The notes under the pieces: model-generated
Databases searched by the model: none
What the model was told of the DNA's origin: nothing
What the model saw: only the letters and a program-made list of their open reading frames with translations
NCBI RefSeq assembly: GCF_000504285.1
Contig: NZ_KI632511.1
Location: 1,671,372 to 1,735,371, forward strand
Length of the DNA stretch: 64,000 nt
Source: Actinospica robiniae DSM 44927
Lineage (GTDB): Bacteria; Actinomycetota; Actinomycetes; Streptomycetales; Catenulisporaceae
Reading direction: 5' to 3'
Made by a program: the position numbers and the translations under genes
In this document: in pieces, positions 3,664-16,402 of the stretch
Numbering within the stretch: position 1 is the stretch's first letter
How the letters are laid out: each line of letters opens with the position of its first letter

Positions 3664-3854
3664 ACAGCGGCGGCCAGGCAGGTCAGCAACACGCCACCCG
3701 TCATCGATCACCCCTCGGCCGAAGGAGGTACCCACCTTACTGGCGTCCACTGACACCGTGCGGGGCCCTACCGTGCATGGTCGAGTTGAGGGCCGTTGTG
3801 ACCGGATACGGCCCGTTGGGGGGAGCTGACAGGAGTTGGGCTGAACTGGTGCCG
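3664..3854. other. intergenic, nothing recognised
   Basis: No convincing gene, repeat or strong promoter was seen between the SnoaL-like gene and the frameshifted small gene that ends at 3855. Confidence 0.4.
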
Positions 3855-4042
3855 CTAGCGTCGTTGCGCCCGCGTGCGCTTGAGGATCTCGGTGAGCCGT
3901 GTGTAGCCGACCCCGTTGTTGAGCGCGGCGACGAGCTCGTCCGGACAGAGTTCGTAGAGCTCCCCCACCAGCTGCGGGCCCTGTTGTCCCAGATCCGGTA
4001 GCCGCCTGGGACGCCGCGGGGTACGTATCTCCGCTTGCTCAT
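3855..4042 (-). pseudogene. small protein gene broken by a 1-base deletion
   Basis: From an ATG at 4042 the reverse strand reads MSKRRYVPRGVPGGYRIWDN, then in the next frame QLVGELYELCPDELVAALN and YTRLTEILKRTRAQRR before TAG. Adding one C in the CCCGC run near 3975 would restore a single 62-residue protein with WDNRARQLVGELYELC at the join. Both halves have good codon bias, so this was recently a real gene. The family is not recognised. Confidence 0.5.
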
Positions 4043-4328
4043 CGTGCCCTGATTCTACCGGGGCTCAGCGGGAGGTCGCCTGGTCTTCAGCGTGGTCGAC
4101 GGTTTCTCGTCGATCCCGAGGCCTCCGCTGCGTAGAGCATAGCGCCGTGCCGCGGCCACGCGAGCTTGTCCACCTCGGAACTGTCCATCTCAGAACCTTG
4201 GCCGCGGCTTCGGGCGATCGCTAGAGTCGGGCCCTACATGGGGCCTCTGCAGCCTTTGTGTCAAATCATCACATTTGCATGTGCGCGTCCCGTTCCCTTT
4301 CAGTCGTGACGGCGGGAGGAGGTGTGAC
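4043..4328. promoter_or_regulatory. upstream region of the peptide operon
   Basis: About 285 bases without a gene. The last 80 bases before the precursor ATG are the only AT-richer part (around TGTGTCAAATCATCACATT at 4256-4275), the likeliest place for the operon promoter. No classical -35/-10 pair could be assigned. Confidence 0.3.
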
Positions 4329-4493
4329 ATGGCAGAGGAATCGCATGTACGCGAGATCGTGCAGGAGTGCGCGGAGAAGTCCGAGGACCTCGAGATGATG
4401 TGGTGGCGAGCGACTTTCGACACCGCGAGCCTCGTGCTCGAGGGCGCAGACGAGCCCCTCGCGACGGATGAGTCCGCGATCACCGCAAGCTGA
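4329..4493 (+). CDS. candidate RiPP precursor peptide
   Basis: A 54-residue acidic peptide right before a radical SAM/SPASM gene. The ATG at 4329 has GGAGGAGGTG immediately upstream, the strongest ribosome binding site in this region. The first 22 residues are charged and helical, like a leader. Residues 23-37 (MMWWRATFDTASLVL) contain two Trp and one Phe in an otherwise polar peptide, and a second acidic stretch follows to the end (ADEPLATDESAITAS). It does not end in the FxSxx motif known for FxsA precursors. Trp25-Trp26-Arg27 and Phe30-Asp31-Thr32 fit the aromatic-x-x pattern of three-residue cyclophanes. Its role as precursor is inferred from size, position and composition. It could also be a small regulatory peptide. 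Confidence 0.6.
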   Translation: MAEESHVREIVQECAEKSEDLEMMWWRATFDTASLVLEGADEPLATDESAITAS

Positions 4494-4569
4494 CGCCTGA
4501 GCAGCACGGTACGGCGGGCTGCGGAGGCTCCATGCACCTTTGGCACCCGGACGCCGTGGAGAGGATCTC

Positions 4570-5700
4570 ATGCCGGGACTGCTCACCCTCATAGTCAAAG
4601 CGACCCGCGAGTGCAATCTGCGCTGCTCCTACTGCAACGACTGGCGCAGCACCGCCAACGCGATCTCCCTGGAGACCGCCGATCTGATGGTCCGCCGGGC
4701 GATGGCCGCCAAGGACGTCACCGCAGTGCACTTCAACTGGCACGGCGGCGAGCCGACGCTGGTGCCCCTCGACTTCTACCGGCACGTCTTCGCCGAGCAG
4801 GCGCGGCACCGGCCGGCCGGGCGGAAGTTCACCAACACGCTGCAGACGAACGGCACGCGGCTGACCGACGAGTGGCTCGACTTCCTGGTGGCCCAGCACG
4901 TGGGCCTCGGCATCAGCATCGACGGGCCGCCCGAGATCCACGATCGGATGCGCCCGACACGCGGCGGGGGCTCCTCCTCGCGGCTGATCGAGAAGACGCT
5001 CGTCAAAGTGCGCGACCGCGGAATCCCGCACGGCGTCAGCATCGTGGCCTCGCACGAGCTGGTCGGCAAGGGGCCGGAGTACATCTGGTCCTTCCTGCAG
5101 AGCGCTGGGATCTCGAACGTCACGCTGGTCCCCGTGCGCCCGCCGAACCCGGTGGCCGGGGACGAGGCCGCGCCGACCATCTCCCCCGAGTTCCTCGGCG
5201 GCGCGGACTGGTCGGCCTACCTGTGCGGGCTGTTCGACCTCTGGTGGTCGAGCGACTCCACGGTGAAGATCAACAACTTCGACGCCGTCCTGCGCAAGCT
5301 GCTCGGCCGGGCGCCGCGCAGCTGCCTGATCTCAGGCAACTGCCTCGGTTCGGTCTACGGGATCGAGGCCGACGGCACGATCATGCACTGCGAGCTGTTC
5401 CAGGGCGAGCCGGACCGGGCCTTCGGGAACCTTGCGAGCACCACCTTCGACGAGGTCGCGGCGGATCTGCGGATGGCGGCGCTGCGCCAGGCGGACGCGG
5501 AGCGGCTCGGCCGGTACCGCGAGTGCCCGACCTTCGGCATCTGCGCCGGCGGCTGTCCGCACGAATGGTACATCCACGAGGGCTACGGCAAGGCGGACCA
5601 GCTCGGCTCCTGTTGCGGCTGGCGCCCGCTCGTCGAGCACATCGCCAAGCGGCTGGCGGCGAGCAAGGTACCCGCGGAAGCGCTCGCATGGACGTCCTAA
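4570..5700 (+). CDS. radical SAM/SPASM peptide maturase (FxsB-like)
   Basis: A 376-residue enzyme. Cys15, Cys19 and Cys22 (CNLRCSYC) form the site for the SAM-binding 4Fe-4S cluster. HGGEPT and SIDGPPEIHDRMRP are further radical SAM signatures. The last 110 residues carry SPASM cysteines (CLISGNC, MHCELF, CPTFGICAGGCPHE, CCGW) for auxiliary clusters. FxsB-like enzymes join an aromatic ring to a backbone beta-carbon in a precursor peptide; the likely substrate is the 54-residue peptide 76 bases upstream. The ATG at 4570 follows GGAGAGGATCTC. In most FxsB proteins an HExxH domain is fused at the C terminus; here that domain is the next gene. The crosslink position is unknown. Confidence 0.92.
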   Translation: MPGLLTLIVKATRECNLRCSYCNDWRSTANAISLETADLMVRRAMAAKDVTAVHFNWHGGEPTLVPLDFYRHVFAEQARHRPAGRKFTNTLQTNGTRLTDEWLDFLVAQHVGLGISIDGPPEIHDRMRPTRGGGSSSRLIEKTLVKVRDRGIPHGVSIVASHELVGKGPEYIWSFLQSAGISNVTLVPVRPPNPVAGDEAAPTISPEFLGGADWSAYLCGLFDLWWSSDSTVKINNFDAVLRKLLGRAPRSCLISGNCLGSVYGIEADGTIMHCELFQGEPDRAFGNLASTTFDEVAADLRMAALRQADAERLGRYRECPTFGICAGGCPHEWYIHEGYGKADQLGSCCGWRPLVEHIAKRLAASKVPAEALAWTS

Positions 5701-5771
5701 GGTAGGCAGCGGACGACGAGGGCGCGGCGGAGGCGGTACGGCCGTGGCTGGTACCGGGCGAAGGCCTGGCC

Positions 5772-6977
5772 GTGGTGGCGCGGGCGATCCGGGCACACGC
5801 CCGGCACGAGGACACCGCCGCCGTCGGCCGCCTGCAGGTTCCGTCCGTCGTCGCGGAGCAGTTGGAGAAGGCGCTCGCCGCCGACGCGTCCTTCGCCCAC
5901 GAGGCGGGCGGCTGCGGCGGGATCCACCTGCCTCCGGGCCGGATCCAGAAGGAGCCGCGGGTCTACGCCGATCTGTGCGGCCTGGCCGCCGAGGCCACGG
6001 TGACCGTCGGCGGCTCGTTCAGCGAACCGCTCGCCGTCTCGAAGATCGTGTTTGCGCACAGCCGGCTCGCCATCGACTTCGGCGACGCGCCGGAACCCGT
6101 GACCCTGGCAGCGCACGACGGCGAGGTGCGGCTCAGCCGCGGCGACACGCGCGTCACCCTGGCGCCCGCCGCCGGGACGGGGACCCTCGCGGTACGCCGG
6201 AGCAGCCCGAGGGTTCAGGTCCGGCAGTCGGTCCGGACCGCGGATATGCGCCTGGCCACCGAGGACGGCCTGCTCCCCCTCGGCATTCCGGACTTCTTCG
6301 CGATCGCCGAGCCGCCGGGTGACGAGGACCTCGCAGGCCTCGAACGTACGCTGCAGCTGCTGGAGCGGGCGTCGCCGCAGACGCTGGCCGAGTTGACCGC
6401 CGTCGCACGCGCCCTCGTGCCGCTGCAGCGGCCACCGGGCCGGGCCATCCACAGCAGCAGCGCGCGGGAGCTGCCGGGCGTGGTCTACGCCGTCTTCGCC
6501 GACCCGCTGGAGGCGCTGGCGATGGTCTGCCATGAATACCATCACCTGAAGCTGTTCCTGCTCGAAGAGAGCGCCACGCTGCTCGGCGATCCGAGCCGGC
6601 CGGTCAACGCGCCGTGGCGGCCGGACACGCGGCAGGCGGAGGGCGTGCTGCACGGGACCTACGTCTTCTTCGGCATCGCCACGACCTTCGCGCGGCTCTT
6701 CACCGTGCTCAATCCGACCCGCCGGGGTTATCGCCGGCTCGCGATCTGGCGCGCGTGCGTGGAGGCGGGAATCGCGCAGCTCGCGTCGGCGGACGCACAG
6801 CCGACGGCCGCCGGCGAGGCGCTGGTGAACGGCATGGGCGCGATCAACGCCGCGGCGCTGGCCGAGCTCGAGGAGAGCCACCACCATGAGGTCCAGAGGG
6901 CCCGCAGAGTCATCGGGGAGCATCTGGCCGCCGCAGGGACCGAGGAACGGAGGGAACCGTGGTATCTCCTCAGCTAG
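5772..6977 (+). CDS. HExxH-type RiPP modification protein
   Basis: About 401 residues, matching the domain that normally follows the radical SAM part in FxsB proteins. The metal-binding motif is His254-Glu-Tyr-His-His258 in MVCHEYHHLKLFLLEE, with conserved downstream NAPWRPDTR and GVLHGTYVFFGIA. Members are thought to modify the same precursor, and from memory some have been linked to 2-oxoglutarate-dependent hydroxylation. The start is uncertain. GTG at 5772 is the first standard start, but the frame already looks coding from 5706 (AVRPWLVPGEGLAVVARAIR). An ATG at 5688, overlapping the radical SAM gene, is in frame but followed by TAG at 5703. The 3' end overlaps the next gene by 19 bases, indicating tight coupling. 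Confidence 0.85.
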   Translation: MVARAIRAHARHEDTAAVGRLQVPSVVAEQLEKALAADASFAHEAGGCGGIHLPPGRIQKEPRVYADLCGLAAEATVTVGGSFSEPLAVSKIVFAHSRLAIDFGDAPEPVTLAAHDGEVRLSRGDTRVTLAPAAGTGTLAVRRSSPRVQVRQSVRTADMRLATEDGLLPLGIPDFFAIAEPPGDEDLAGLERTLQLLERASPQTLAELTAVARALVPLQRPPGRAIHSSSARELPGVVYAVFADPLEALAMVCHEYHHLKLFLLEESATLLGDPSRPVNAPWRPDTRQAEGVLHGTYVFFGIATTFARLFTVLNPTRRGYRRLAIWRACVEAGIAQLASADAQPTAAGEALVNGMGAINAAALAELEESHHHEVQRARRVIGEHLAAAGTEERREPWYLLS

Positions 6978-7783
6978 GGTCGGGCTCGCCCGACCATCTC
7001 GCCGCGGACCATCTCGCCGCCGACTATCTCGCCACCGTGCAGAGCAGCGCCGTCGCCCTGGCCGACCTGGCCGAGGACGACCCGACGCTGATCGTCCCCG
7101 GGTGCCCGGCGTGGACCCTGGCGGACCTCGTCCATCACGTCGGGGCGGTCTACCTCCACGTCAGCGAGCTGACCAGGAGCCGCCCCGTCTCGGGCAAGGA
7201 GGTCAAGACCCGGCTCGGTCCGGTCCGGGCGCCCGCCCCGGGCACGATGCGGGCCTGGTTCACGCAGGCCACTGACACGCTCGTGGACACCCTCGCGGCC
7301 GCGGGCGAGGACGAGCGGATCTGGTCGTGGTCGAGCGAGCGGACCGTGGCGTTCTGGATCCGGCGGATGTGCCACGAGACGGTCGTGCACGAATGGGACG
7401 CCGCCAGCGCGCACGGCGAGGACCTGCGCATCGAGCCGGGCCTGGCCGGCGACGGGATCGACGAGTTCGTCACGCACTTCGTACCCTTGATGCGCCGCCG
7501 CCGCAGCGCCGTGGCCGCGTCCGGCGAGCACTATCTGGTCGAGTGCACCGACGTGGCCTCGGCGTCCTGGGACGTGGCGTTCGGCGAGGGCGCCCTCGAC
7601 GCGGGGGCGGACGGCAGCGGCACGGCGCCGCCCGATCCGAACCCGGTGGCCCTGCGCGGTGCGGCGCAGGACCTGCTCCTGCGCTTCTGGCGACGGCCGC
7701 TTCAGCCGAACCCGGACCCCGACCCCGACTCCCTGACCGCCGCGGGGTTCGAGCGCTGGTGGAGGGTCGTCGGATGCCCGTGA
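6959..7783 (+). CDS. MDMPI-type mycothiol-dependent enzyme
   Basis: A 274-residue protein of the maleylpyruvate isomerase (MDMPI/DinB-like) family. The N-terminal four-helix domain includes VPGCPAWTLADLVHHVGAVY, and the zinc ligands fit His in LVHHVG and the Glu/His of MCHETVVHEWDA. An MDMPI_C-like domain follows. Family members use mycothiol as a cofactor or transfer groups to thiols; many have unknown substrates. The GTG start at 6959 follows GGAACGGAGGGAACC and lies inside the end of the HExxH gene, so it is translated with the peptide genes. A role in thiol chemistry or detoxification of the peptide product is inference. Confidence 0.85.
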   Translation: MVSPQLGSGSPDHLAADHLAADYLATVQSSAVALADLAEDDPTLIVPGCPAWTLADLVHHVGAVYLHVSELTRSRPVSGKEVKTRLGPVRAPAPGTMRAWFTQATDTLVDTLAAAGEDERIWSWSSERTVAFWIRRMCHETVVHEWDAASAHGEDLRIEPGLAGDGIDEFVTHFVPLMRRRRSAVAASGEHYLVECTDVASASWDVAFGEGALDAGADGSGTAPPDPNPVALRGAAQDLLLRFWRRPLQPNPDPDPDSLTAAGFERWWRVVGCP

Positions 7784-7796
7784 AGGGAGTTGACCG

Positions 7797-8690
7797 ATGA
7801 ACCCGTCGCCGTCGATGGGTGGCGCAGCCCCGCTGAACCGGCTGACCGACCGCGAGCGGTTCCTGTTCGACCTGAACGGGTTCGTGGTCGTGCGCGGGGC
7901 CCTGACGGAGAGTCATGTGGCCCGGCTCAACGAGGCCGTGGACCGGCACCCGGAGGGCATCGCGCGCTCGACCCTCGGGCCGGGGCCGTCGAAGACGCTG
8001 GGCGGCAGCCGGCGCTGCCGCGGGTTCAAGCCGGATCCGCTGCAGTTGCCCGAGCCGGACGCGCGCCCCTTCCGCGAGCTGGTCCGCAACCCCGAGTCCC
8101 GGCGCTACCTGGACTCCCTCCTCGGCCGCGGCTGGCGCCTCGACTCGGCACCGGAGATCATCCTCGCCGATCAGGGTGCCGACGGCATGTGCCTGCACGG
8201 CTCCGGCCAGCGGTGGTTCTCGCCGGTGACCTACTACTCGTACGCGAACGACGTCATCCGCTGCGGCATGATCACCTTGGAGTTCGCACTGACCGCCGCG
8301 CGGGCCGGGGACGGCGGGTTCGCCTGCATTCCCGGGAGCCCCAAGGCGAACCTGCACTGCCCCGCGTCCATCTTGAAGTGGGAGCAGGACACCGAGCTCG
8401 TGCGCCAGATCGAGATGGAGCCGGGCGATCTGATCGTCTTCACGGAGGCCCTGCTGCACGGCACGCTGCCGTGGCGCGCGGCGCATCAGCGGCGGGTCAT
8501 CCTGATGCGCCAGGTGCCGAAGGTGAACTGCACCGTCCCGCCCCGGCTCGCCTACCATCAGACGAGCTACCCCGACTGGATCAACGACCTCGCGCCGGAG
8601 GACCGGGTGCCGTTCGAGGCCCCTTACTTCCTGGAACGCCCGGTGCTCACCGAGGACGACACGGTGGAGCCGGCCACGGAATGGGTGTGA
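7797..8690 (+). CDS. PhyH-type iron/2-oxoglutarate oxygenase-like protein, atypical iron site
   Basis: A 297-residue protein with the phytanoyl-CoA dioxygenase layout: GFVVVRGALTESHVARLNEA at the start, then LHGSGQRWF, GDGGFACIPGSPKANLHCP and ALLHGTLPWR with the distal His221 and Arg232/233. The first His is His134, but the position two residues later, normally Asp or Glu, is Ser136 (HGS). Loss of that carboxylate is the hallmark of iron/2-oxoglutarate halogenases, although a PhyH branch with LHGG-type motifs also exists. ATG at 7797 follows GAAGGGAG. Its place in the operon suggests hydroxylation or halogenation of the peptide. The reaction is not established. Confidence 0.85.
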   Translation: MNPSPSMGGAAPLNRLTDRERFLFDLNGFVVVRGALTESHVARLNEAVDRHPEGIARSTLGPGPSKTLGGSRRCRGFKPDPLQLPEPDARPFRELVRNPESRRYLDSLLGRGWRLDSAPEIILADQGADGMCLHGSGQRWFSPVTYYSYANDVIRCGMITLEFALTAARAGDGGFACIPGSPKANLHCPASILKWEQDTELVRQIEMEPGDLIVFTEALLHGTLPWRAAHQRRVILMRQVPKVNCTVPPRLAYHQTSYPDWINDLAPEDRVPFEAPYFLERPVLTEDDTVEPATEWV

Positions 8691-8692
8691 CG

Positions 8693-9961
8693 ATGAAGAA
8701 CCGACCCGCCTCGACCTTCGCGCCCCTGCGCACGCGGGACTTCAGGGTGCTGTGGGCGGGGCAGAGCGTGAGCCTGTTCGGCGACCGCGTCTTCCCGATC
8801 GCCCTCGCCACCCTGCTGCTCACCTCGGGCCGCGGAGCGTCAGGGCTCGGACTCGTGCTGGCGGCGCGCTCGGTCGCCCTCGTCGCGGTGGTGCTTCCCG
8901 CGGGCGTGCTCGCAGACCGGGTCAGGCGCACCCACGTGATGTTCGCCGCGAACCTGCTGTGCCTGGGCGGCGTCGCCGGCCTCGCTTTGGGCCGGTATCC
9001 GGTCTCGGTGGGCCTGGCCTGTGTCTGCGGGGCCGCGGTCGGCGCCGGCGAGGGCATCTTCACCCCGGCATTCAGCGCCGTGGTGCCCCAGGTCCTCCCG
9101 GACGAGGACATGCAGTCCGGCAACGCCCTGATGTCGCTCTCCAGCCAGACGGCGATGATCGCCGGCCCGGCGCTCGGCGGCCTGCTGGTCGCGCTCGGGA
9201 GCCTGCGCAGCGCCTTCCTCATCGACGGTGCGACCTTCGTGGTCAGCTGCGCCTGCCTGGCGGCCATCCGGGTGGAGCGGCCCGAGCCCACCGGGGAAGG
9301 CATGTCGCTGCGCGTCGCCGCGGGCGGTTTCGCCGAGGTCGCCAAGCGCCCGTGGGTGAGTGCGGTGATGCTGATGTCCTGTGTGCAGATGGTCTTCGCC
9401 TCCGCCACCTGGACCCTGCTGCTGCCGGTGATCGCGCGCACCCGCTTGGACGGCACGCCCGCGTACAGCGCCTTGCTGGTGACCTTCGGCGCCGGGGCCC
9501 TGCTCGGCGCGCTGGCGGCGAGCCGGTGGCGGCCGTCCAGGCCGGGGGCCGCCGCGTTGGCCGCGCTCCTGCCGTTCGGGGCGATGCTCGCCGTCATGGC
9601 GGTGTCCCGTTCGGTGTTCGTGATCGGCGCCGCGACGGCGTTGGCGGGGGCGGGCCTGGAGTTCTTCGGCATCGCCTGGATGACGGCGCTGCAACGCGGG
9701 ATCCCCGAGCGCGCGCTGGCCCGGGTCATGTCCCTGGACTACTTCGTCAGCGGCCTGCTGTACCCGATCGGCCTGGCCGCCATGGGCCCGCTGGCCTCGC
9801 ATTTCGGAGCGGGCGCGATCCTGGTCCTCGGCGCGGCGGTCCTCGCCGCCAGCACCCTGGGCCCGATGTTCGTGCCCGGCGGCCTGGACTTCGCCGATCC
9901 CGGGCCCGCGCCCGGGCCGGTCGACCGGGCGAGCGTGGTGGGGAGCAGCGCCGATGGCTAG
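8693..9961 (+). CDS. MFS efflux transporter
   Basis: A 422-residue polytopic membrane protein of the major facilitator superfamily, close to MFS_3-type drug exporters. TFAPLRTRDFRVLWAGQSVS and the loop GVLADRVRRTHVM are typical signatures, and 12 hydrophobic stretches are spread over the length. The ATG at 8693 starts 2 bases after the PhyH stop, so the two are translationally linked. The likely job is export of the finished peptide or self-protection. The C-terminal 25 residues are polar (FADPGPAPGPVDRA) and probably cytoplasmic. Confidence 0.88.
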   Translation: MKNRPASTFAPLRTRDFRVLWAGQSVSLFGDRVFPIALATLLLTSGRGASGLGLVLAARSVALVAVVLPAGVLADRVRRTHVMFAANLLCLGGVAGLALGRYPVSVGLACVCGAAVGAGEGIFTPAFSAVVPQVLPDEDMQSGNALMSLSSQTAMIAGPALGGLLVALGSLRSAFLIDGATFVVSCACLAAIRVERPEPTGEGMSLRVAAGGFAEVAKRPWVSAVMLMSCVQMVFASATWTLLLPVIARTRLDGTPAYSALLVTFGAGALLGALAASRWRPSRPGAAALAALLPFGAMLAVMAVSRSVFVIGAATALAGAGLEFFGIAWMTALQRGIPERALARVMSLDYFVSGLLYPIGLAAMGPLASHFGAGAILVLGAAVLAASTLGPMFVPGGLDFADPGPAPGPVDRASVVGSSADG

Positions 9962-10490
9962 CCGCGATCAGGTGAGCGTGCCGCTGGAACGCGGCCTCGC
10001 CGGGCAGTTGCACGCCCCGGCCGCCGTCAACGGCAAGAGCGTCTCGGCGTTCCTCGACACCGGCGCCATGTGCACGGTCCTGTGCCTCTCCCTCACCTCG
10101 GACCTGGGCCTGGAGACGCGGGCATCCGGCCGGCGCGTCGGGGGTGCGGGCGCGGTGACCCTCGAGGTGTTCGAGGTCGTGGACGCGCTGTTCGAGCTCG
10201 GCGGGGTTCCGTCGCCCGGCCTGCCGCTGCTGGCGACGGACCTGAACCGGGTCAACGGCGGCCGGCGCCGTAACGGCGATCTGCGGATCGACGTGGCATT
10301 GGCCGGCGAGCCTGCGGAGCCTGCGACGTCAAGGGCCATCGGACCATCCCCTTGTGTTGACCGGGATCTCACCTCGCAGACTAGGAAGGCCGCCTACTCC
10401 CGCGATACCACCGCACTATCGTCGAACTCTGCCGCCGGCTTCATCGCGGCCGCGACGAGGGCGGCCAGCTCCGGCGGGCCTTCGAGGTAG
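9954..10490 (+). CDS. retropepsin-like aspartyl protease-like protein
   Basis: Starts with ATG at 9954 inside the end of the MFS gene (8-base overlap). The first 110 residues look like a retropepsin monomer: AVNGKSVSAFLDTGAMCTVL holds the active-site Asp-Thr-Gly, followed by alternating strands and ALFELGGVPSPGLPLLATDL. Retropepsins act as dimers, each giving one Asp. The second Gly-Asp motif expected near the C terminus is weak (NGDLRIDVAL). From about 10310 codon bias is lost and the frame overlaps the opposite thioesterase gene, so the 3' end is probably truncated or frameshifted. It is the best candidate in the operon for leader-peptide removal, but activity is uncertain. Confidence 0.6.
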   Translation: MASRDQVSVPLERGLAGQLHAPAAVNGKSVSAFLDTGAMCTVLCLSLTSDLGLETRASGRRVGGAGAVTLEVFEVVDALFELGGVPSPGLPLLATDLNRVNGGRRRNGDLRIDVALAGEPAEPATSRAIGPSPCVDRDLTSQTRKAAYSRDTTALSSNSAAGFIAAATRAASSGGPSR

Positions 10491-11188
10491 CTCCAGTGGT
10501 CCCCGTCGAGCAGGTGGAAGTCCGCGTCGGCGCAGCCCTCCCAGCCGGGCCAGACCACGGACGGCGGCACGACCTCGTCGGCGCTCCAGCCGATGACCGT
10601 CACCGGCACCGGGATGCGGGGTTCGCCGTCGTACGCGTAGCCGCGCTCCACGCGCATGTCGAACAGCAGGCTCCGGGCGGCCAGCTCCGCGTGGTCGGCG
10701 GGCAGGGTGAAGCCCATCCGCGCCAGGCAGATGTCCTGGATCTCGGCGACCGCGTCGAAGGTCTCGAGGTCGACGAAGCTGAGCCGGCCGTAGAGGCCGC
10801 GGTGGGCCGGCCCCCAGGAGGAGCAGAACAGGCGCTCGGGCAGCGGCAGTCCCGCCTCCTGCAGCCGGAACGTGGTCTCCACCAGGTAGGGGAAGGCGCC
10901 GCAGTGCCCGATGAAGGCATAGCGACGGTCCACGTACCCTGATATCGCGGCGACGGTCGCGTCCGCGAATTCGCGGTGGGTCCGCAGCGGTGCCTCGTCG
11001 GTCCGGTCCTCCCGGCCGGGCGGCTGCAGGGGGCAGAGCACGCCGTCGCCGATCTCCCGCGGCCAGGCGTGGTAGGTCGCGGACGCGCCCACTCCGGCGT
11101 AGGGGAAGGCGAAGAGGGCGAACTCGCCGTCGCCGGGCTCTGCGCGCAGCATCGTCGCGCCGGTCACGGATCGCGTGGTCGGGCTCAT
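10394..11188 (-). CDS. type II thioesterase with Cys nucleophile
   Basis: A 264-residue alpha/beta-hydrolase of the GrsT/TEII family, which clears or releases acyl groups from carrier proteins. The N-terminal FALFAFPYAGVGAS and PLQPPGRE, the Asp in SADEV and the His in DGDHW are as expected. The nucleophile elbow reads FIGHCGAF, so the usual Ser is Cys96. The ATG at 11188 overlaps the NRPS stop (ATGA), so the two are one operon on the reverse strand. Cys at this place is rarer than Ser and in some thioesterases goes with strained-ring or macrocycle formation. Whether that applies here is unknown. Confidence 0.85.
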   Translation of the reverse strand: MSPTTRSVTGATMLRAEPGDGEFALFAFPYAGVGASATYHAWPREIGDGVLCPLQPPGREDRTDEAPLRTHREFADATVAAISGYVDRRYAFIGHCGAFPYLVETTFRLQEAGLPLPERLFCSSWGPAHRGLYGRLSFVDLETFDAVAEIQDICLARMGFTLPADHAELAARSLLFDMRVERGYAYDGEPRIPVPVTVIGWSADEVVPPSVVWPGWEGCADADFHLLDGDHWSYLEGPPELAALVAAAMKPAAEFDDSAVVSRE

Positions 11189-12981
11189 CGGCCGCCGGCC
11201 GTCCTTTCCGCGTCCTCGATCAGGCCCCGCACCGCCGTGGCCGTTCCCGCGATGGTCGGGTCTTCGTAGAACCCGCGGGCCTCGAGGACGACCCCGTACT
11301 CGCCGGAGATCGCGGTGGTGATCCGGGCGGCGAGCAGCGAGTGGCCGCCGAGCTCGAACAGCCCGTCGTCCACACCGATCCCGTCGATGCCGAGGACGTC
11401 CTCCCACAGGCCGGTGAGCCACGCCTCGATCTCGGTGCTGACCGCGCGGTAGGGCCGGGTCAGTTGCGGACGTTGCCGGCTGCGGCGGCTCGCGAGGTCC
11501 GAGCGGTCGACCTTCCCGTTGGCGTTGAGCGGCAGCGTGTCGATCCGGGTCAGCCGAGCGGGGACCATGTAGTGCGGGAGGACCGCGTGCAGGGCCTTGC
11601 GCAGCTCAGGTGTCGGCAGCGGGTCGTCGCTCTCGTAGAACGCGGCGAGTGTCCGGCCGCCGACGCTGTCGCGCTGCGGCACCACCGCAGCGTCGCGCAC
11701 GCCGGGCAGTGCGCGTAGCGCGGCCTCCACCTCGCCGGGCTCGACCCGGAATCCGCGGATCTTGACCTGGAAGTCCGCGCGCCCGATGAACTCGATCGTG
11801 CCGTCGGGCCGCCGGCGCACGAGGTCTCCGGTTTCGTACATCCGGGCCCCGGGTTCAGGCGCGAACCGGTGCGGCAGGAAGCGACGCGCGGTGAGGGCGG
11901 GCTGGCCGAGGTAGCCGTCGGCGAGGCCCTCGCCCGCCGCGAAGAGCCCGCCGGTCTCGCCGTCGGGCATCGGGTTCAGGTCCGCGTCCAGGATGAGGAC
12001 GGAGGTCCCCCTGACGGGCCGTCAGATCGGGACGGTTCCCTGCTCCACCGGAGCGGACACGGGGTGGCAGGTGGTGTAGGTGGTGTTCTCGGTCGGGCCG
12101 TAGGCGGCGATCAGCCGGGCTGCGGGCAGCGCGGCGAATGCGCGGTTGACGTGCGGTACCGAGAGCACGTCGCCCCCGGTCAGCAGGTAGCGCAGCGCGG
12201 GCAGGTCCGCCAATCCGGCATCGACGACCTGGTGGAACAGTCCCGTGGTCAGGAACCACACCGTGACGCCCTCACGGCGGGCCAGTTCGATCAGCTCGAC
12301 CGGGCTCAGGTCCGGCAGGGGCGCAGGGACCACGGCCGCGCCGTGCAGCAGCGGCACCCAGATCTCGAAGGTAGACGCGTCGAAGGCGGTCGGCGCGGCG
12401 TGCAGGAACACGTCGTCCGGCCGGACGTCGATGTAGTCGGGGTCTTGCGCCAAGCGCAGCACCGCGCGGTGCGGCACGCACACCCCGCGCGGCGAGCCGG
12501 TGGATCCCGAGGTGTACGCGATGTAGGCGGTCCGGCCGGGGTGCTCGACGCGCGTCGGCGGCGCCTGCGGCTCGTCGACGTCGGACGGCTCGGGTGGCAG
12601 CAGCTCACGGATCGGGGCGGGAACGCGTCCGAGGTGCTCTTGTCCGCAGATGACGAGTTCGACCCCGGCGTCGTGCAGCAGCGCGGCCAGCCGCCCGTCG
12701 GGGTCGCGCGGATCGAGCGCGAGATAGGCCCGGCCGGCCTTGAGGATGCCGAGCAGCACGGCGATCGACGTCGTCGAACGGTTCATCAGCACGGCCACGG
12801 GGGCGTGGCCCGGGACGTCGCCCGGACCGGCGGCGCGGGCCAGGAGCCGGGCCACGTCATCGCTGCGCGCGTCCAGTTGCGCGTAGGTGAGCCGGTCTTC
12901 CCCGGCGCGGACGGCCACGGCTTCGGGCGTCCGGCGCGCGCAGTCGACGAAGAGCCGGTGCACGGACTCCGGCGTCGTCAC
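11185..12981 (-). pseudogene. NRPS A-PCP module with in-frame stop
   Basis: A 598-codon gene starting with GTG at 12981 (GTGA overlap with the upstream MFS stop). Adenylation motifs are in order: [60 protein letters not shown] and LPLNANGKVDR. A carrier domain with GLFELGGHSLLAA closes the protein. Codon 320 is TGA (12024-12022) where the family has the Gly of IGRP; one T-to-G change would restore it, and the frame continues unbroken. The pocket residues read by eye, D-A-F-W-L-G-A-T-Y, resemble valine-type codes. No condensation domain is present, so it would load an amino acid onto a free-standing carrier. As read, the product is truncated. Confidence 0.85.
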
Positions 12982-14246
12982 AGTTCCGCTCCGTCCTCGA
13001 GGAGCACCGCTGGTTCGGTCGGTGCCTGCTCGGCGCTGCCCGCGAGCGTGCTCGGGAGGAACGCGGCCGCGCAGGCCGCGGCCAGCACGAAGGCAGTGGC
13101 CAGATTCATCGCCCAGACCACGCCGAGGGCGCCGCCTAGCGCGGCCCCGCCGAACCCGCCGACGATGGTGGACCCGGCCTGCACAGTGAAGTAGGACGCT
13201 GAGACCCGGCCCAGGGCGTGGTCCGGGGTGGCGGCCTGGACGGAGGTGTCGACGGTCACGAACGCGCATATCGCCGGGATGCCGATCAGGGTGAACAGCG
13301 CGGCGTCGGCCACGACCGAGTGCAGGTTGAAGGTGGCCAGGAACGCCAGGCCGAGGGCGAGGAACGAGCCCGGGAGCAGCAGCCGCGCCGGCACCCGGGC
13401 GCCGAGCACCCGGCTGAGCGGGGCCCCGATGACGAATCCGAGGCCGAAGAAGGCGAACAGCACGCCCAGGGTCCGCCCGCCCGCCCCGAGTTCCTCGCTC
13501 ATGTAGGGCACGAGCAGCACCGTCAGTGTGCTGTTCCCGACCGCGGCGAGGCCGCCGGCCAGGAACAGCGGGGGCAGCCCGCGCGTGCGGGCGACCAGCG
13601 CCCAGCCCTCGCACGCCTCGCGCAGGAATACGGCGAGGGCGGCGCCGGAAGCCCGCTTCGGCTTGGTTTCCGGCGTCTGCCGGGTCCTGATGAGCGCGAC
13701 GGAGAGCGCGGCGGCGAGGTAGCTGCCGATGTCCGCCGCGACGATCGGCGCGAACCCGAACAGCGCGTAGAGCGCGCCGCCGAGCGGGGCGCCGATCAGC
13801 CGCACCAGGCCGCCGACCAGGGCGTTGAGCGAGTTGGCCGCGCGCAGCTGCGGCCCGCGCCCGACGATGAGCGGGATCATCGCCTGGCGCGCGGGGTTGA
13901 ACAGCTGGCTGAAGGAGGCCTCGATGAACAGGGCCGTGTAGAGGATCCAGATCTCGCCCACCCGGTGCACGGTCAGCATGAGGCCGACCGCGGCGGCGCG
14001 GGCCAGATTCGTGGCGATCATCGTGCGGCGCCGGTCCCAGCGGTCCACGAGCACGCCCGCCACCGGGCTGAGCAGGAGGGCGGGCACCGTCTCGGTCGCG
14101 AGGGCCAGTCCCGAGGCGAGCGTGGAGCCGCTCAGCCTCAGGACGTAGTAGGGCACGGCGAGCAGCATGAACCAGTCGCCGACGTTGGAGAGGAACTGGC
14201 CGACGACCAGATAGCGCAGATCACGCAAGCGCAACACCTCGCGCAT
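12978..14246 (-). CDS. MFS transporter of the NRPS cluster
   Basis: A 422-residue major facilitator protein. LRDLRYLVVGQFLSNVGDWF, the loop GVLVDRWDRRRTMIATNLAR and 12 hydrophobic segments place it with MFS_3 exporters (EntS-like). Start ATG at 14246 follows the methyltransferase stop after 2 bases, and the end overlaps the NRPS start by 4 bases. This makes a four-gene operon methyltransferase-MFS-NRPS-thioesterase. It most likely exports the peptide made there. The gene itself looks intact, while its partners are damaged. Confidence 0.88.
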   Translation of the reverse strand: MREVLRLRDLRYLVVGQFLSNVGDWFMLLAVPYYVLRLSGSTLASGLALATETVPALLLSPVAGVLVDRWDRRRTMIATNLARAAAVGLMLTVHRVGEIWILYTALFIEASFSQLFNPARQAMIPLIVGRGPQLRAANSLNALVGGLVRLIGAPLGGALYALFGFAPIVAADIGSYLAAALSVALIRTRQTPETKPKRASGAALAVFLREACEGWALVARTRGLPPLFLAGGLAAVGNSTLTVLLVPYMSEELGAGGRTLGVLFAFFGLGFVIGAPLSRVLGARVPARLLLPGSFLALGLAFLATFNLHSVVADAALFTLIGIPAICAFVTVDTSVQAATPDHALGRVSASYFTVQAGSTIVGGFGGAALGGALGVVWAMNLATAFVLAAACAAAFLPSTLAGSAEQAPTEPAVLLEDGAEL

Positions 14247-14248
14247 GG

Positions 14249-15030
14249 CTACGCGTCGCCCCCTTCGCCTCCGGGCGCCTCGGTGGCGCGGGAGAGCAGG
14301 CAGCCGAACTCCAGCGCGGTCGAGTCGACCCGGGGATCGGTCGTCATCCACGCCTCGACCCGGGTCCCCGCGTCGCTGAAGAGCCGGCGCCAGAAGCCGG
14401 TCGTCTCCAGACGCTGCTCGGTGACCTGGTGCAGCAGGTAGTACGGGTTGTAGTACGCGGTCCCCAGGCCGTGCCGCATCTTCGACGGGTCGTCAGGCCG
14501 GTGGTCGACTTCGATCACGACCAGGTGGGAGTCCTCGGCGCAATGCACCGCGGCGTGCACCAACTGGACCACGGCGTCCCGGTCCTGCTGCTCCAGCACC
14601 TCCTGGAGCGAGAACGCCGTCAGGTAGGCCGTGCGGCCGCGCGGGAGCCCGTCGCCCCGGGCCAGATAGCCCTCGGCGCTGTCCACGGCGAAGGAGACTT
14701 CGAGCCCGGATTCGGCCGCGGCCCGGCGGGCCGCTGCGATGCTCGGCGGATGCGGATCGACGCCGACGCCGCTCGGCCCGTCGCCGCACAGGTCCAGCAG
14801 GATCGTCCCGTCCCCGCAGCCGAGGTCGACGATGGTGTCCACCGGGCCGGGCAGCTCCCGCAGCAGCCTGCGGACGAGCGGAAGCGCGTCGTAGCGGCTC
14901 ATTCCGCAGCTCCCCTTGCCGACTATGGCGCCGTTCCGGCCAGCATAGACCGCGGGGTCCGCCATCGTCTCGGGCAGTTGCCCGAGTGTGTCGGCGTAGA
15001 AAGCGCTGGCGCAGGCCCTGCGCGACACGA
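14249..15030 (-). pseudogene. SAM-dependent methyltransferase, N-terminally truncated
   Basis: The reverse strand gives about 260 residues with a class I methyltransferase core: VDTIVDLGCGDGTILLDL (SAM-binding motif I), GVGVDPHPPSIAAARRAA (motif II) and TAYLTAFSLQEVLEQQDRDA. The preceding AFYADTLGQLPETMADPAVY and GRNGAIVGKGSCGMSRYD recall the 2-ketoarginine methyltransferase group, but this assignment is from memory. Coding character stops near 15030, where the opposite strand begins a truncated gene, so the usual first 60-80 residues are gone. A start within the remaining frame is possible, for example Met in CGMSRYD, but would give a partial enzyme. Confidence 0.7.
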
Positions 15031-15044
15031 CGGCAGGCCACCGG

Positions 15045-15520
15045 TTGAAGGTGACGGTGACCGCCGACGCCCGTAGCTGCGTCGAGCGGGCCGACCTCGT
15101 CGTCCCCGTCACCACGGTCACAGAAGGCTACCTGCCGTACGCGTGGCTCAAGCCCGGCGCGCTGCTCGCCCACGTCTCACTCGACGACGCGATGCCCGAC
15201 GTCGTCGAGGCCGCCGCGATGGTACTCGTCGACGACTGGGGCCTGGTCAGCGCGGCCAGCGAAGGCTGCTCGGACGCATGTACCGGGCCGGCGAACTGCT
15301 GAGCCCGCAAGGCGAGGCCCACCCGGAGGCCGTCCCCCGAGCGGGCGCCCGGCGCGTGGACGGCACGCTCGGGGAGGTGCTCACCGGCGCGGTACCGGGC
15401 CGCAAGTCCGAGACCGACGTCATCCTGAGCAACCCGTTCGGCATGTCAGTACTCGACCTCGCCGTGGCCGAACCGGTCTTCCACGTGGCCCGCGACCTGG
15501 GAATCGGCCTGCGCCTGTAA
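15045..15520 (+). pseudogene. ornithine cyclodeaminase/SbnB-like fragment, frameshifted
   Basis: The plus strand reads CVERADLVVPVTTVTEGYLP and KPGALLAHVSLDDAMPDVVE, then after a frame change near 15255-15270 RLLGRMYRAGELLSP and FGMSVLDLAVAEPVFHVARD, ending with TAA at 15520. This is the C-terminal half of an NAD-binding ornithine cyclodeaminase/mu-crystallin family protein, most like SbnB-type enzymes that help make 2,3-diaminopropionate. The N-terminal half is missing and the join at about 15040 abuts the truncated methyltransferase. It would have supplied an unusual amino acid to the peptide cluster. Confidence 0.65.
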
Positions 15521-15532
15521 CCCTGAGGACGG

Positions 15533-16402
15533 ATGATGGCCTTCTTCCTGCTCACCGAGAACACCTTCCACTCGGGCTACCTGGTGAACCAGTGGCTTGA
15601 CGAGTTCGGCACGGACCCGGAATTCCTCGGCGTGACACTGCGCGCGGACCCGCTGCCCGAAGAAGTGCTCGCAAACCGCGCGTCGTTTCACGAACGCCTG
15701 CACGGGCGCAGAGAGCTGAGCGATATGGAGCAGAGGGAACTCCTCGCCCTCTACCCCGACGCGGGCGACACGGACTTCGCCATGGTCAAGCTGCTAGGCA
15801 TACCGGCGCGGCCGGTCACCGCCCTGGACCCCGGCACGGCAACCTTCCTAGGCCACGACCTGAACAGCGCACGAGCAGAAGCGTGGCTGACGGCCATGAG
15901 CCAGGCGCACGAGAGGCTGCACGGATTCGTCTTCCTGGATCGGCTGCTGGCGAGCTGGTGGATCAAGACAACCGCAGGCATGCTGTTCAACGCCCACTCG
16001 GCCGTCCTGCCGCACGCACGCGGCATGTTCGCCATCGAACAAGTCGCCGCCCGCGCAGACGCCGAATACTTCCGCCGCGCCGCCGGCGCGACCGTGCACT
16101 TCGTCGACGAGGGCGTGGACACGGGCCCGATCGTGCGCGCCGAGCGGCTCGATGACCCATTCGCGGCCGAGTCGATCTGGGAGTGCAAAGGCAGGTCCTT
16201 CGCGACGGGATTCAGACTGCTCACCGAAGTCGCCCGCGACGCCCAGGCGTCCCGAATCGCCCCGCCGACACCGCAGACGGACGGCACGGAGGACCGCGAA
16301 CCCGGCCCCGAGTTCAAGCGGCGAGACTTCGCTCAAGCAACGAAGGCGGCGGCCGAACGCGGCTACCTCGAGATGCGACGCCGGGCGAAAGCCGGGCCAT
16401 GA
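15533..16402 (+). CDS. formyltransferase (Formyl_trans_N family)
   Basis: A 289-residue protein related to methionyl-tRNA and amino-sugar formyltransferases. The catalytic set is visible: Asn and His in LFNAHSAVLPHARG and Asp in GATVHFVDEGVDTGPIV. It would transfer a formyl group from 10-formyl-tetrahydrofolate to an amine. The first 70 residues (FFLLTENTFHSGYLVNQWLD) differ from the housekeeping Fmt and the C-terminal tRNA-binding domain is replaced by a short basic tail. The ATG at 15533 follows TGAGGACGG and lies 12 bases after the SbnB fragment. Next to it is a deformylase gene, so the pair may add and remove a formyl group on a peptide or on ornithine-type residues. Confidence 0.8.
   Translation: MMAFFLLTENTFHSGYLVNQWLDEFGTDPEFLGVTLRADPLPEEVLANRASFHERLHGRRELSDMEQRELLALYPDAGDTDFAMVKLLGIPARPVTALDPGTATFLGHDLNSARAEAWLTAMSQAHERLHGFVFLDRLLASWWIKTTAGMLFNAHSAVLPHARGMFAIEQVAARADAEYFRRAAGATVHFVDEGVDTGPIVRAERLDDPFAAESIWECKGRSFATGFRLLTEVARDAQASRIAPPTPQTDGTEDREPGPEFKRRDFAQATKAAAERGYLEMRRRAKAGP

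Follow-up and report, generated by a model that had tools for sequence, protein, structure and literature searches.

Which peptide would be made by seven consecutive genes of the soil-type actinomycete Actinospica robiniae DSM 44927, and by which kind of maturase? The genes are located at 4329–10490 of the analysed stretch of contig NZ_KI632511.1 (64 kb in length, referred to as the window). A first-pass annotation regarded them as an operon for a ribosomally synthesized and post-translationally modified peptide (RiPP) with an FxsB-type maturase. Coding signal, operon spacing and domains support a RiPP-type operon in outline. Very probably, the seven genes make a small crosslinked peptide by means of an enzyme of the DarE clade. 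Darobactin, a lead against Gram-negative bacteria, is the compound for which enzymes of this clade are best known. It is likely that the operon acts on the 54-residue precursor encoded by its first gene.

Placement of the maturase

The precursor and maturase genes open the operon:

4314–4328, + strand: ribosome-binding site of the precursor gene (gggaggaggtgtgac, read from the sequence)
4329–4493, + strand: precursor peptide, 54 residues (frame plot of GC content at third codon positions, codon-position GC; no homologue found)
4570–5700, + strand: radical S-adenosylmethionine (SAM)/SPASM maturase, assigned by sequence to the DarE (darobactin) clade, 376 residues (CxxxCxxC and eight further conserved Cys)

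The NCBIfam models score the maturase with 276 bits for DarW, 207 for DarE, 206 for sulfatase maturase, 175 for DynA and 113 for FxsB. All of these scores are below the curated cut-offs (650 bits for DarE and DarW, 370 bits for FxsB). In a tree of 45 rows the maturase is part of a nine-row clade with a support of 99/98. The support stays at 98/97 when the longest other branches are removed. Besides the window maturase, this clade comprises DarE of Photorhabdus and Vibrio and homologues from Streptomyces, Cupriavidus and Larkinella. In the alignment, the maturase and its homologues share the Cys residues that belong to the radical SAM and auxiliary clusters. The conserved Cys274 is followed by Glu in the window maturase and by Asp in all nine others of the alignment. 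The AlphaFold model of the maturase has a pLDDT of 84; among solved structures, it most resembles anSME, an anaerobic sulfatase maturase, and ChlB, which forms cyclophanes. Judged from its sequence, the maturase is a member of the supported DarE clade and is not FxsB-like.

The analogy to FxsB-type enzymes drawn in the first-pass annotation is not upheld. The DarW and DarE models score higher, and a grouping with FxsB was rejected in two trees (p-AU 0.029 and 0.021). A grouping with the sulfatase maturases was rejected as well (p 0.013, in the tree with the longest other branches removed).

Precursor and predicted crosslink

The precursor (4329–4493) reads MAEESHVREIVQECAEKSEDLEMMWWRATFDTASLVLEGADEPLATDESAITAS. 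It is the acidic ORF with a strong ribosome-binding site (directly upstream) that had been described before, and it carries a clean coding signature. The ribosome-binding site alone is weak evidence, because short open reading frames (ORFs) preceded by GGAGG are common in the window (21 of 30–120 residues on both strands). The GC content at third codon positions (GC3) climbs from ~0.6 upstream to 0.93 exactly in the frame of the precursor and drops again at the stop codon. The codon-position GC of the ORF is 0.65/0.44/0.83. This ORF is a convincing gene by its frame-specific GC3 and by its location, 76 bases ahead of the maturase.

The precursor may be divided into a leader (residues 1–24), a core around W25 W26 R27 A T F D31 and a follower extending to S54. 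A core around WWRATFD had been proposed and is supported in outline by a W/R-bearing core that precedes the follower. The expected lack of an FxSxx end is confirmed, the C-terminus being SAITAS. An aromatic-X-X3 motif beside a radical SAM/SPASM gene, which is a loose criterion for triceptides, is found at W25-W26-R27 and also at F30-D31-T32. Neither Trp has an aromatic residue at position +2, the arrangement of ether sites (at +2, W25 has Arg and W26 has Ala).

DarE forms a C–C bond between W3 and K5 (R5 in Yersinia) and an ether from W1 to the aromatic residue at +2 (W-N-W, W-T-F). For the C–C crosslink, DarE enzymes also accept Arg instead of Lys (PMC9055067). A W25–R27 cyclophane without ether is predicted for the window precursor because its core has the W-x-basic arrangement and not the W-x-aromatic ether motif. 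As the exact crosslink site this is the best single prediction, albeit a tentative one with slightly less than an even chance of being correct.

Relatives of the maturase and their precursors

The nearest maturase is the Larkinella homologue (283 bits, ~35% identity); identity to anything found does not exceed 38%. The Larkinella precursors (L016, 9479–9907, and L160, 979–1407) are encoded ahead of a DarE-clade maturase and have 142 residues. They contain WFR, WVR and WFR in tandem (...RIWFRIWVRFWFRI...), followed by a follower. These three W-x-R motifs exceed chance (shuffling p 0.0002). A second species has identical core DNA, with differences in the flanking codons. As in the window, W-x-R and a follower are present in a precursor ahead of the maturase. 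The Larkinella system differs by its long precursor with three motifs and by a locus without homologues of the HExxH, PhyH, MDMPI and retropepsin genes described below. A precursor of this type is an attractive simple system for testing W–R crosslinking.

Two small ORFs precede the DarE-clade maturases of Streptomyces and of a Cupriavidus plasmid (L111, L112, L113 and L119). Homologous precursors from Streptomyces and Cupriavidus bear the aromatic motifs VQWIYTRP, VQWAYVRP and WEKANP. A glycosyltransferase-like gene is located downstream of the maturase in L112, L113 and L119. The four clusters are possibly an undescribed family of glycosylated crosslinked peptides. Clusters L111, L112 and L119 share with the window a maturase of the same clade and small ORFs directly upstream, but instead of the oxidative set they have a pair of small ORFs and a glycosyltransferase-like gene.

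Two further arrangements were observed. In a Streptomyces-family genome (G098; L114, 1726–5741) two tandem DarE-clade maturases come after a small ORF ending in SWVRFIQRQR, and a probable 2-oxoglutarate oxygenase gene comes after the maturases. Photorhabdus asymbiotica has two darobactin-type precursors (L017, 4236–4409 and 4773–4952) with AWNWSKSFQEI and the variant AWNWTKRFPI. Conservation of a small ORF before radical SAM homologues, which had been named as a check, holds in part: small ORFs are present just upstream of the homologues, but beyond a short W-x-R motif they are unlike the window precursor.

Operon layout and tailoring genes

Five genes follow the maturase:

5772–6977, + strand: alpha-ketoglutarate (aKG)-HExxH peptide beta-hydroxylase family protein, 401 residues (HEYHH and APWRPDTR intact; start uncertain)
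6959–7783, + strand: MDMPI/DinB-like protein (mycothiol-dependent maleylpyruvate isomerase family), 274 residues (domain models)
7797–8690, + strand: PhyH-type Fe/aKG enzyme, 297 residues (HGS for the usual HxD; second His, in LLHGT, kept)
8693–9961, + strand: MFS transporter, presumed exporter, 422 residues (domain models)
9954–10490, + strand: retropepsin-like protein (Asp_protease_2), 178 residues (FLDTGA active-site motif)

Reading the ORFs of the 64-kb window confirmed seven ORFs in the stated order, all on the + strand. The frames are open and GC3 is high in all seven genes. Matches above the Pfam cut-offs were obtained for radical SAM and SPASM, MDMPI_N, PhyH, MFS_1 and Asp_protease_2. 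Four of the six joints are overlaps (HExxH/MDMPI and MFS/retropepsin) or gaps of less than 15 bases (2 bases between PhyH and MFS, 13 bases between MDMPI and PhyH). The unidirectional gene run claimed earlier is correct in order, strand and these tight joints; the gaps of 76 bases (precursor to maturase) and 71 bases (maturase to HExxH start), on the other hand, are not tiny. The HExxH start is doubtful. GTG 5772 has no clear ribosome-binding site and the reading frame is open from 5706. At the other end, the coding signature of the retropepsin gene weakens past ~10300 in the GC3 frame plot, though the ORF extends to 10490. No sigma-70-type promoter or terminator was detected around the operon start.

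The HExxH protein scores 101.9 bits with TIGR04267 (cut-off 40), and the motifs HEYHH and APWRPDTR (APWRxDxR) are conserved. Its solved relatives include ChlH. Cyclophanes made by radical SAM enzymes are substrates of HExxH enzymes; those that have been characterised either hydroxylate peptides with a cyclophane or cleave the chain by oxidation (PMC12636437). In the window the HExxH enzyme is a separate protein adjoining a DarE-clade maturase and not an FxsB-type one. No other case of this pairing was found in the genomes searched.

The PhyH protein scores 45.8 bits with the Pfam PhyH model (cut-off 22). Its facial triad deviates from HxD/E...H. The first site reads HGS, and the His of LLHGT is retained. 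The nearest homologue found (Cupriavidus) reads HHG, likewise without carboxylate. Loss of the carboxylate ligand is typical of Fe/aKG halogenases. The chlorinating-enzyme model matches weakly (17.7 bits versus 226), and a halogenase-like activity is a lead only. A PDB oxidase/hydroxylase (4xc9/4xcb) matches as a possible PhyH relative at E = 0.01 only.

MDMPI and MFS proteins are clear by family, and their roles in the operon can be suggested from this assignment. The retropepsin-like protein has a single DTGA motif and would act as a dimer. A review of RiPP leader proteases does not mention aspartic proteases (PMC10885120). In the literature collection searched, no direct match was found for a radical SAM RiPP cluster with a retropepsin, a mycothiol-dependent enzyme or a PhyH enzyme. 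Oxidative tailoring and export, as previously proposed, agree in outline with the HExxH, PhyH and MFS genes identified by domain models.

Proposed pathway and comparison with known systems

In the proposed pathway, the DarE-clade maturase would bind the precursor and join an indole carbon of Trp25 to the beta carbon of Arg27. The resulting C–C bond would close a three-residue cyclophane (−2 Da) and be the counterpart of the W3–K/R5 half of darobactin, minus the W1–W3 ether. Next, the HExxH enzyme might hydroxylate a residue of the ring or one close to it, or clip the chain oxidatively, as PflC does. A second oxidation may fall to the PhyH enzyme. Among the operon genes, the best candidate for removing leader or follower is the retropepsin-like protein, and the MFS protein would export the product. 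The MDMPI protein could supply or remove mycothiol or be an accessory protein with a DinB fold. It is rather improbable that all of this amounts to a new RiPP class, with a DarE-clade maturase forming only the Trp–Arg cyclophane, HExxH hydroxylation, a carboxylate-less PhyH (halogenase-like or oxidative-cyclase-like), mycothiol-linked MDMPI chemistry and release by a retropepsin-type protease.

The operon resembles the darobactin and daropeptide clusters (DarA–DarE) in its DarE-clade maturase and in a short precursor with a Trp-rich core, in which W-x-basic corresponds to the C–C half. It differs by the lack of the W-x-aromatic ether motif and by a long follower (none or few residues in darobactin). 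Furthermore, it has an MFS protein instead of DarBCD, the additional HExxH, PhyH, MDMPI and retropepsin genes, and a maturase below the DarE and DarW cut-offs. The FxsB and ChlB–ChlH systems with aKG-HExxH hydroxylase share HExxH domain and motifs of the same family and a similar radical SAM fold. In the window, however, the maturase is of another clade, the HExxH protein is unfused and the FxSxx end is absent. Biphenomycin clusters (bpm/bip) are comparable in a short precursor whose modifiable aromatics flank an Arg and in the presence of HExxH hydroxylase and MFS protein in one operon. Their MNIO, arginase, B12-dependent radical SAM and TldD-type protease are absent from the window operon.

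An actinomycete member of the DarE clade with a W-x-R substrate would, if confirmed, split C–C from ether activity within the clade. Such a split would help to reveal the residues deciding between both activities. The W–R crosslink is a specific and cheaply testable prediction. The real novelty could lie in MDMPI, PhyH and retropepsin; a retropepsin or a carboxylate-less PhyH acting on the peptide would be new tailoring chemistry for RiPP pathways.

Alternative interpretations

Several observations weigh against a W25–R27 crosslink in a tailored DarE-clade product. The window precursor has a single W-x-R (WWR), which is expected by chance with 0.07 according to shuffling. Shuffling is significant for Larkinella only; the precursors from Streptomyces and Cupriavidus do not reach significance. 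As no precursor orthologue was found, conservation does not pin down the core or the cleavage sites, and the cyclophane could instead be located at F30-D31-T32. The maturase is on a long branch (1.7 changes per site), and p-AU values of ~0.02–0.03 are not overwhelming. The AlphaFold model of the HExxH protein alone is unusable (pLDDT 37), and contact of the peptide with MDMPI, PhyH or retropepsin is hypothetical. The W-x-R core may be wrong and the same operon may form another crosslink, from Phe30 to Asp31/Thr32, from Trp26 to a later residue, or several. This is a serious but doubtful alternative. The aromatic motifs placed elsewhere in the Streptomyces and Cupriavidus precursors and the non-significant lone W-x-R are in its favor, but WWR holds the only Trp with a basic residue at +2, as in Larkinella (WFR/WVR), G098 (WVR) and darobactin (W-S-K/R). 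A true daropeptide, with an aromatic–aliphatic ether formed using water as by DarE, is improbable. The position inside the DarE clade and DarW/DarE as top family models would agree with it, whereas Arg and Ala at +2 leave no ether motif (as defined in PMC9055067), a DarBCD transporter is missing and the scores are far below the 650-bit cut-offs.

The reading favored initially, a RiPP of FxsB type with a three-residue cyclophane and an unusual precursor, is highly improbable. The low FxsB score, both rejected placements and the absent FxSxx end argue against it, even though aKG-HExxH domains are often located beside or fused to FxsB-like maturases, some of them in the A. robiniae genome and its order (PMC12636437). 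A composite or decaying island is unlikely, though less easily dismissed. Here the RiPP part would be precursor, maturase and HExxH protein only, with MDMPI, PhyH and retropepsin separately acquired or non-functional. Such an origin would fit the IS21 and IS5-like remnants upstream, the in-frame stop in a neighboring gene of nonribosomal peptide synthetase (NRPS) type and the lack of close PhyH and retropepsin homologues in 148 genomes of the order. The lost coding signal at the retropepsin 3' end and the PhyH without carboxylate ligand point in the same direction. These points are opposed by the open frames and high GC3 of all seven genes and by the tight last four joints. The locus is a real and probably functional orphan RiPP operon, with the W25–R27 cyclophane as the best single prediction for its crosslink.

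Distribution and genomic surroundings

Neither a close maturase nor an orthologous operon was found in 60 relatives or in 392 order-level, 395 class-level and 286 (251 + 35) family-level genomes; these sets are samples, and absence there is no proof of uniqueness. No orthologous operon was present among the matches listed in a collection scan or in plasmids. The gene combination had been called unfamiliar, and the co-occurrence search of other genomes, which gave no equivalent operon, bears this out. Precursor homologues were absent from the plasmids searched, and the genomes searched had no orthologous maturase locus able to carry one. Beside the maturase homologues there is no counterpart of the HExxH, MDMPI, PhyH, MFS or retropepsin genes. 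In the 148 order-level genomes, the PhyH protein has two weak matches only and the retropepsin has no homologue.

Remnants of the insertion sequence (IS) IS21 (IstB) and probable IS5-type transposases are located upstream of the operon (988–2830, − strand), which is consistent with an acquired island. A small gene at ~3840–4042 (− strand) reads MSKRRYVPRGVPGGYRIWDNRARSWWG... and goes on in another frame (ELYELCPDELVAALNN...), so that it has either a frameshift or an assembly error at a run of G. Downstream, a convergent NRPS-like cluster (10394–16402) adjoins the operon. It comprises thioesterase, adenylation–peptidyl carrier protein (A-PCP), second MFS and methyltransferase genes (− strand), followed by a formyltransferase-like gene (+ strand). 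The A-PCP gene has an in-frame TGA at 12022–12024 (− strand) within an otherwise continuous adenylation domain.

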